The notes beneath the pieces were generated by a model, which ran no database searches, was not told the origin of the DNA, and saw only the letters and a program-made list of their open reading frames with translations. This document shows, piece by piece, positions 47,214 through 49,059 of a stretch of DNA of 64,000 nucleotides; within the stretch, counting starts at the first letter, position 1, and every line of letters starts with the position of its first letter. The position numbers and the translations under genes are program-made. This stretch comes from Achromobacter sp. AONIH1 (lineage in GTDB: Bacteria > Pseudomonadota > Gammaproteobacteria > Burkholderiales > Burkholderiaceae_B). The stretch covers positions 3,968,001 to 4,032,000 of the forward strand of contig NZ_CP026124.1 of assembly GCF_002902905.1 (NCBI RefSeq), given 5' to 3'.

Positions 47214-48404
47214 ATGATCGCTCCCGTCCATTTGCTATCGATCGCGGCGCTGGCGGGCTTGCTGTCCTTGTGCGTGCTGGGATCGCTGGCGCGCAGCGGC
47301 ATGGCCGGCATCGGCGAGAGCATCCGGGCCAACCTGCTGACGCTGGCGGCTTTCGGCGGATATGCGTTGCAGGTTACGGCCGCGCCCTTGTGGTTGTCCG
47401 TGCTGCTGCCCAATGCGCTGGTCGCATTGGCGCTGTGCTGCTATTTCACGGGCGTGCGGCGCATGATGGGGCGCACGGTGCCGCGGCGCCTGATGGCGCT
47501 GTCGGCGATCGCGGCCTTGCTGGCGGTCGCGGCGTACACCTATGTCGAGCCGCGCGTGGCGCTGCGCATCTCCGCCATGTCGCTGCTGCAGACGGGTTTC
47601 ATGCTGGCCACGGCCGCGACGGTGCGCGGCGGCATGCCGCAAAATCGTTCGCGCTACGCCTATTGGTTCGTCTGGACGGTGGCCGCCGCGTCGGCCGCCG
47701 TTTGCGGGCTGCGCGCGGTGCTGTACATGACGGGCGTGGCGCATACCTGGGCGCTGCTTGAAGCCACCACCTGGAATGTCGTCTTCCTTACGCTGGGGCT
47801 GTTGACGCTGCCCTGCCTGATGCTGGGCACCATCATGATCATCCACGACCGCATGCTGGCCGAGCGCGAACAGGAAGCGAACACGGACTTCCTGACCGGT
47901 CTCCTGTCGCGCAAGGCTTGGTGGCTGCAGGCCGAGCGCTACTGCGCCCAGGCCCTGCGCACGCGTCGGCCGCTGACCCTGCTGCTGCTGGATATCGATC
48001 ATTTCAAGCGCATCAACGACCTGCACGGCCATGCCGTGGGCGACGCCGTGCTGCGGCACTTCGGCCTGCTGGCGATCGCCACGCTGCGTTCCAGCGACCA
48101 TGCCGGCCGCGTCGGGGGCGAGGAGTTCGCGGTGATGTTTCCCGACTCGCGCGGCGAGGCTGTGATGGAGGTGGCGGGGCGCTTGCTGGAATCGGTGCGG
48201 CGCACGCCTTGCGGCCATGGCGGCGGTGCGATCTCGTACACGTTCAGCGCGGGCGTGGCCGAGTGGATCCCGGGCGAGAACCTGCAATCGCTGTTCGAGC
48301 GCGCCGACCGCAAGCTGTACGCGTCGAAGGCCGCCGGGCGCAACCGCATCAGCGGGCCGGGCGTCGAAGCCGAGCCGGCCGAGCGCGCGGCGATAACGGC
48401 CTGA
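47214..48404 (+). CDS. Membrane-bound diguanylate cyclase
   Basis: Makes cyclic di-GMP from two GTP, promoting sessile behaviour. The first 210 residues or so hold about six membrane helices of an unnamed sensor. The GGDEF domain follows (DFLTGLLSRKAW, LLLLDIDHFKRINDLHGHAV) with intact active site GGEEF at 301-305. RSSD at 292-295 is the inhibitory RxxD site at the correct five-residue distance, so product inhibition is expected. No EAL domain. 396 residues. Twenty-five bases after qmcA. Confidence 0.94.
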   Translation: MIAPVHLLSIAALAGLLSLCVLGSLARSGMAGIGESIRANLLTLAAFGGYALQVTAAPLWLSVLLPNALVALALCCYFTGVRRMMGRTVPRRLMALSAIAALLAVAAYTYVEPRVALRISAMSLLQTGFMLATAATVRGGMPQNRSRYAYWFVWTVAAASAAVCGLRAVLYMTGVAHTWALLEATTWNVVFLTLGLLTLPCLMLGTIMIIHDRMLAEREQEANTDFLTGLLSRKAWWLQAERYCAQALRTRRPLTLLLLDIDHFKRINDLHGHAVGDAVLRHFGLLAIATLRSSDHAGRVGGEEFAVMFPDSRGEAVMEVAGRLLESVRRTPCGHGGGAISYTFSAGVAEWIPGENLQSLFERADRKLYASKAAGRNRISGPGVEAEPAERAAITA

Positions 48405-48435
48405 GCGGGACCGGGCCTGGGGCCGGCAAGCGCTG

Positions 48436-48601
48436 CTAGTGTGCTGTCCCGCAGATACGCCCGCACGAAATCCACCCCTAGCCGCCATGGCGTCGTTGCA
48501 AATCCTCGCGATACCTACGGGTATCACTGCGGTTTGCGCCTAGCCCTGACGTCTATGGATGAATTTCGTCATGCGGACGTACCTACGGGACAGCACACTA
48601 G
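48436..48601. mobile_element. Palindromic MITE-like element with CTAG flanks
   Basis: A 158-bp palindrome (48440-48597) flanked by CTAG on both sides (48436-48439 and 48598-48601), which looks like a 4-bp target duplication. With flanks the ends are perfect 16-bp inverted repeats, CTAGTGTGCTGTCCCG and its complement. Over the first 39 bases the arms agree at 35 positions, allowing one 3-nt gap. CCATGGCGTC and GACGTCTATGG continue the pairing inward; the tip is GATACC-TACG-GGTATC (48510-48525). It has no coding capacity. The stop codon of smpB lies in the right CTAG. Confidence 0.75.
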
Positions 48602-49059
48602 TTGTCCTTGCGGCGCGTGTCGTGCTTCATCAAGCGCTCTTTCTCGCGCTGCCAATCCTTCTCGCGCGAGGTGTCGCGCTTGTCGTAGAGCTTCTTGCCG
48701 CGGCCGAGCGCGAAATCCAGCTTGATGCGGCCGTTCTTGTAGTGCAGGTTCAGCGGCACCAGCGTGTAGCCGCGCTGCTCGACCTTGCCGATCAGCTTGC
48801 TGATTTCCTCGGCCTTGAGCAGCAGCTTGCGCGTGCGCATGGCATCGGGATGGATGTGGGTCGAGGCCGTGGGCAGGGGGCTGACGTGCATCCCCAGCAG
48901 GAACAGCTCGCCGTCGCGCACGATGACATAGCTTTCCTTGAGCTGCACGCGACCGTCACGGATCGCCTTGACTTCCCAGCCCTGCAGGACCAGGCCGGCC
49001 TCGTAGCGGTCCTCGATGAAATAGTCGTGCGTGGCCTTGCGGTTGTCGATAATGCTCAT
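48598..49059 (-). CDS. smpB: SsrA-binding protein SmpB
   Basis: Partner of tmRNA in rescue of stalled ribosomes. The 153-residue protein starts [20 protein letters not shown] and has [19 protein letters not shown], then a basic C-terminal tail ([20 protein letters not shown]) that enters the mRNA channel. The stop TAG overlaps the CTAG flank of the palindromic element; the protein end RRKDN is as expected for the family. Divergent from ratA, a conserved pairing. The ssrA gene is not in this window. Confidence 0.97.

Follow-up and report, generated by a model that had tools for sequence, protein, structure and literature searches.

IS870 of Agrobacterium vitis depends on a CTAG target for the stop codon that closes its own open reading frame, and the YPAL/RU-2 repeats of Yersinia, in the 2006 account of De Gregorio, are reportedly located close to stop codons. 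The palindromic or non-autonomous elements closest to the one described here include (i) RUP of Streptococcus pneumoniae, a 107-bp MITE of IS630-Spn1 with TA targets and the IS630 transposase as its proposed mover, (ii) YPAL/RU-2, a mobile palindromic repeat of about 168 bp, both as portrayed in the available excerpts of PMC2229807, and (iii) MITEPsy1 of Pseudomonas syringae, 100 bp long, with IS5-type ends at CTAG or YTAA according to the available part of PMC3189936. Elements of the IS630 family duplicate TA, as stated in the accessible portion of PMC2170065, which cites Tenzen and Ohtsubo 1991 for TA within CTAG.

The element analyzed here lies at the smpB end in the window, i.e. the whole stretch of 64,000 nucleotides of Achromobacter sp. 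AONIH1 under study. It resembles RUP as described in those excerpts in being a MITE with an IS630 transposase as proposed mover and TA at its targets, but differs in its length of about 160 bp, its full palindrome, its location at CTAG and often at stop codons, and a core held in common with elements that display other ends. The TA doubled inside CTAG is a feature common to IS630 elements, on the evidence of the same part of PMC2170065, from which the window element differs in being non-autonomous and in residing in a genome without a DDE_3 match. In contrast to the window element, YPAL/RU-2 is reported in the excerpts of PMC2229807 with target duplications of 3–26 bp and no TA ends. MITEPsy1 displays IS5-type ends, as do the type D elements considered below, but it is only 100 bp long, its ends are unlike those of the window element, and the available part of PMC3189936 does not mention the core.

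Architecture of the element at the smpB end

A near-complete palindrome with CTAG on both ends occupies positions 48436–48601 of the window, between two convergent genes (Table 1). The TGA of the diguanylate-cyclase-like gene starts 34 bp ahead of the left CTAG, and smpB reads ...AAG GAC AAC TAG at the right end of the element. The initial annotation had proposed a long hairpin filling the spacer between CTAG flanks, with the right CTAG supplying the smpB TAG stop (AAC TAG); the former is borne out by the palindrome and its folding, and the latter by the reading frame. The DNA fold of 48420–48620 reaches −54.1 kcal/mol, whereas 200 shuffles average −34.1 and none is as good (z −6.4), and the RNA fold of 48436–48601 reaches −85.1 (z −8.6). 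The palindrome had been described as 158 bp long with 12-bp ends: its palindromic nature stands, whereas its dimensions need revision, since the body bounded by a TA duplication comprises 160 bp, which leaves no room for a transposase gene, and the perfect terminal inverted repeat, GTGTGCTGTCCCG, extends over 13 bp. A search of the window against Rfam returned 0 families at the gathering score.

Table 1. Features of the palindromic element and its neighboring genes, in window coordinates.
Feature	Position	Strand	Remarks
MITE body	48439..48598	.	160 bp, G...C between doubled TA dinucleotides
Left CTAG	48436..48439	.	target C, TA copy and the element's first base
Right CTAG	48598..48601	.	the element's last base, TA copy and target G; 48598–48600 is the smpB TAG stop (minus strand)
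Left terminal inverted repeat GTGTGCTGTCCCG	48439..48451	+	same as in IS630-family IS
Right terminal inverted repeat	48586..48598	-	
Central hairpin core, 50 bp	48491..48540	+	common to elements with differing arms
smpB, 153 aa	48598..49059	-	stop codon finished by the element's last base
Diguanylate-cyclase-like gene	47214..48404	+	GGEEF motif by eye; convergent with smpB

Copies in the genome and in relatives

The 6.65-Mb genome, a single contig, comprises ten near-full copies (L001–L010) with different flanks, one of them (L009) cut to 145 bp, and this recurrence confirms that the palindrome is real and not a product of chance. Six copies (L002–L007) are identical to the window copy at 160–165 of 166 positions, and L008 at 151. 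Ten partial copies (L011–L020) are also present, including two short ones with both ends (L015 and L017), the rest being single-armed. The single-arm copies (L011–L014, L016 and L018–L020) comprise the outer ~50 bp, always of the same arm, and end near a small palindrome, CGCCATGGCG.

The assignment of the element as a MITE, already made from the window, is supported by copies at different places, by the terminal repeats and by an empty CTAG site found in three relatives at one copy; with ten near-full copies and this empty site at L002, the element is neither a single copy nor fixed in one position.

Matches at E ≤ 0.001 were found in 14 of 43 genomes of the genus and, with just three candidates scored per genome, in 45 of 268 genomes of the family, both counts taking in the own genome as well as matches that are partial or confined to the core. 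In three species (L030, L031 and L041, in G012, G009 and G021, respectively), a single-arm copy that over its length is 75–80% identical to the window element follows one common left flank, and it is probably an old remnant that was vertically inherited. Lone ends in L127–L129, L137 and L138 were tried as IS ends, and no convincing partner was found within 3 kb. In the viral collection, the core gave 0 matches and the three end patterns gave 1, 0 and 0 matches, the single hit lying in one contig (L220); phage records contained no match. Core-type matches turned up in 3, 5 and 4 plasmid records in the respective searches, and the search of plasmids by ends alone returned only chance-like matches.

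Empty sites and the host protein

The empty-site comparison at L002 covered 29 relatives (L161–L189). Three of these (L174, L175 and L176) align on both flanks and have exactly one CTAG at the junction, where the own genome reads CTAG-element-CTAG; by eye, this single CTAG is the in-frame stop of the upstream ortholog. CTAG closes the ortholog in L169 and L188 as well, the other flank being out of place, and L182 aligns on both flanks around a junction with no CTAG, most other relatives having stop codons of other kinds. At the L005 site, the left flank aligns in 24 of the 29 relatives, none of which has CTAG there. At smpB, all 29 genus relatives read end the gene in TGA and lack the element, and the empty CTAG state, which a comparison of smpB 3′ ends in element-less relatives had been expected to reveal, was not seen.

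The empty site and the target duplication are thus seen at one copy only, L002. Insertion into a CTAG that is itself a stop codon is supported at this copy and consistent with the sites elsewhere. The further claim that insertion leaves the protein unchanged is borne out at L002, by the single-CTAG stop of three relatives, but not at smpB itself, where all 29 relatives read have TGA.

At the L002-orthologous stop codon of L169 (G008) stands another short CTAG-flanked palindrome, with GGGCCTGTTCA ends, which also occurs beside L109 and L114 and in L102; palindromes with these ends are possibly a second family of CTAG-targeting elements.

CTAG sites and stop codons

In 464 kb of the own genome, with the element masked, 130 CTAG sites were observed versus a Markov estimate of 371.5, about 2.9 times fewer, in agreement with the scarcity asserted for GC-rich proteobacterial DNA in the initial annotation. 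According to simple in-house gene calls, these background sites comprise 33 at stops, 42 within genes and 55 between genes.

Stop codons at the elements were called for coding frames, recognized by a codon-position rule that compares the GC content of the three positions. Seven of the ten near-full copies (L001–L005, L007 and L009) supply the in-frame TAG of such a frame; in L008, a 403-codon frame ends at the element and fails the codon-position rule, and L006 and L010 supply no in-frame TAG of a coding frame. Among the eight partial copies tested, five (L011, L014, L016, L018 and L019) give a stop at the outer end, two (L013 and L020) give it via an inner CTAG, and L017 gives none. In other genomes, a coding-frame stop lies exactly at the boundary in 9 of 28 elements. 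Relative to the 88 non-disrupting CTAG sites, stops are only weakly in excess (P 0.04 for 7/10; 0.008 for 8/10, with L008 counted), and most of the bias would follow from CTAG targeting combined with the purging of insertions within genes.

These observations bear on an alternative in which the hairpin is a selected bidirectional 3′-end structure between convergent genes, either a terminator or an mRNA-stabilizing hairpin, its mobile origin being incidental. The strong RNA hairpin and the many copies at stop codons accord with such a role, as do changes on both sides of pairs, found in the core and, across 15 sequences, in type A arms (23 cells versus 53 broken cells), but a simple scan for terminator-like sites found no T-run terminator within the element, the element is missing at smpB in every one of the genus relatives read, the stop excess mostly follows from the distribution of CTAG, and single-arm copies persist. 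We consider this alternative unlikely. The same scan bears on the bidirectional barrier suggested in the initial annotation, as it disclosed no terminator-like site inside the element.

Target duplication

Ends were paired by a rule that places no constraint on the neighboring bases; of 48 elements tried, 47 gave an end pair. TA stands at both ends in 28 of these, the other 19 having TA at one end at most or being registered otherwise. Across the 28 TA-flanked elements, the left TA is preceded by C 22 times and by T six times, and the right TA is followed by G 26 times and by A and T once each, with C preceding it in every case; eight have a non-CTAG flank on one side. The six T-left elements, which come from four genomes only, read T-TA-G...C-TA-G. 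Because they keep C before the right TA, where a 4-bp duplication would need T, they fit a duplication of TA only, and the 4-bp YTAR duplication originally put forward is not supported for the window element. The window copy taken alone, with CTAG on both sides, fits TA and CTAG duplication alike.

Terminal repeats and the candidate transposase

A genome collection of 84,980 species was scanned for the MITE end followed by a base absent from the MITE, and 12 stretches were obtained. One of these, in Acidovorax sp. Root219 (L356), is a complete 1161-bp IS with MITE-type ends, located in CTAG. Its transposase matches NF033545 (IS630) with 247.7 bits, the cut-off being 100, and contains Pfam DDE_3, and its left end agrees with the MITE left end at 19 of 20 bases and with the MITE right end at 17.

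Ten of the 12 IS630-type loci, among which L359 and L360 carry the same IS, display a TA-adjacent end pair, in all ten cases within CTA...TAG and in seven with GTCCC-type ends. The transposase frame closes on a TAG completed by the target in 10/10 of the ISs with an end pair, a likeness to IS870, from which the window MITE differs in rebuilding the stop codons of host genes. IS630-family transposase genes that have no stop of their own, the target completing TAG, were recorded at L356, L358–L360, L362–L366 and L368. In Ideonella alba, a 272-bp element (L346 and L350) displays the same IS630-type ends around another interior.

A driver in the same genome is usual for an IS630-derived MITE and is not a defining requirement. 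The own genome (G000) has no DDE_3 (IS630-type) match at E 0.001, which means that the driver was lost, is located elsewhere or was missed. A search of the PDB returned no sequence relative of the IS630 transposase. Taken together, the window element is very probably a gene-less, repeated 160-bp MITE whose ends are of the IS630 type; its insertion at the smpB stop, into the TA of a CTAG, was likely the work of an IS630-family transposase acting in trans.

The mover proposed in the initial annotation was an IS5-group transposase generating a 4-bp YTAR duplication. CTAG at both ends of the element and the insertion of IS5-group ISs of the genus at CTAG or TTAA (L318 in the own genome, L339 and L345) are in keeping with it, as are the type D elements, which have the core in common with the window element and carry IS5-group ends; nevertheless, the window ends, GTGTGCTGTCCCG, are unlike the IS5-group ends read, e.g. 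GGAACCTCTGAACAAG and GGACGCTCTGCATAAC, differing from those of L318, L322, L339 and L345, they match those of an IS630-family IS, and the T before the left TA facing a C before the right TA in six elements is at odds with YTAR duplication. An IS5-group mover is therefore highly improbable for the window element.

The type D ends themselves match those of IS5-group ISs: the G187 end agrees exactly over 16 bases and adjoins an IS5-family transposase gene (NF033581, 345.6 bits), the second end not being found, and the G020 ends agree with one or two differences in 17. G020 contains 32 IS5-group transposase matches of equal score, and the few of them that were read have ends near the type D MITE ends. 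Two other leads were abandoned: (i) an IS3 one, raised by a type-C-like end beside an IS3 transposase (L231), since 21 of the 22 end pairs found among 30 loci of that transposase group are of the TGA type; and (ii) IS427-type (DUF4096) ISs, present in 32 of 268 genomes, which gave a convincing GTGTGCTGTCCC end in 0 of the 30 loci read, the matches there all having 3 mismatches.

A palindrome with a tetranucleotide on both ends would also suit a RAYT/REPIN-type element, in which a Y1 transposase acts on tetranucleotide-tagged hairpins, but such an origin is scarcely credible here, as insertion duplicates target sequence and the ends match a DDE-type IS630 IS.

The shared hairpin core

The central core recurs in palindromes of similar length with either IS630-type or IS5-type ends. 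Comparison of 14 representatives discloses 80–96% identity between equal-length cores (66 pairs), versus 16–84% between left arms and 20–80% between right arms (91 pairs). The left and right arms of the window type are 16 and 20% identical to those of type B, and 24 and 29% to those of the IS5-ended type D. A clear relationship nevertheless links some arms, the window left arm being 60–76% identical to its counterparts in types C, A2, L355 and L106. The G-to-C length is 160–162 bp in 38 of 46 elements, examined over the range of 133–193 bp, a count in which L008, L035 and L302 (156, 156 and 149) are probably mis-registered and the second element of the locus was picked for L120.

Within the order, the core pattern with at most one mismatch was found in 12 of 399 genomes, the own one counted, and the reversed control in none of the genomes listed. 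Outside the own genome, 19 of 23 core loci have an end pair and four have none; one of these four, L294, resembles ordinary sequence. The core is not required for an element to exist, because short copies with both ends and no core are found (L130, L131, L135 and L136). No intermediate between IS630-ended and IS5-ended core elements appeared among those examined. The core is not described in the open-access literature searched, including by its sequence letters, nor in the available parts of PMC2267715, on stem-loop families of Bordetella, and PMC4133298.

Covariation was analyzed in 39 of 59 distinct cores over 18 pairs. Pairs are formed in 95.2% of cells versus 90.8 in shuffles, and seven pairs show two-sided changes versus 2.6, none of 500 shuffles matching the covariation score, although relatedness alone can exceed the shuffles used; the 14 further pair types are unremarkable, as 72 of the 500 reach that number. 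The core may be kept by selection, or move as a module. A bolder version, which we advance tentatively and hold at somewhat less than even, is that the core is itself the mobile module, spread through Burkholderiales within the ends of IS630 or IS5, two unrelated families that share a CTAG/YTAR target, the length of about 160 bp being kept and the arms replaced wholesale. The use of YTAR-like sites by both transposase groups would favor stacking and the exchange of ends.

Proposed mechanism and significance

In the proposed mechanism, an IS630-family transposase acting in trans would excise the element at its terminal G and C, and the excised element would be joined to staggered cuts at TA, which would double the TA. 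With an element that starts with G and ends with C, a target TAG stop would be rebuilt in either orientation and the host protein left intact. CTAG is rare, with a quarter of the counted sites at stops, and as insertions within genes would be purged, copies would accumulate where genes end. The driver may have been lost from the own genome, may lie outside it or may have been missed, and the central hairpin core, conserved apart from the arms, may represent a structured module kept by selection.

These findings suggest a harmless entry at gene ends such as that of smpB, in which the end base of the element would rebuild the CTAG stop codon upon landing. The occurrence of one hairpin under both IS630-type and IS5-type ends would make it possible to test whether MITE interiors are junk or selected, exchangeable modules, and the element family is a marker for past IS activity in Burkholderiales.
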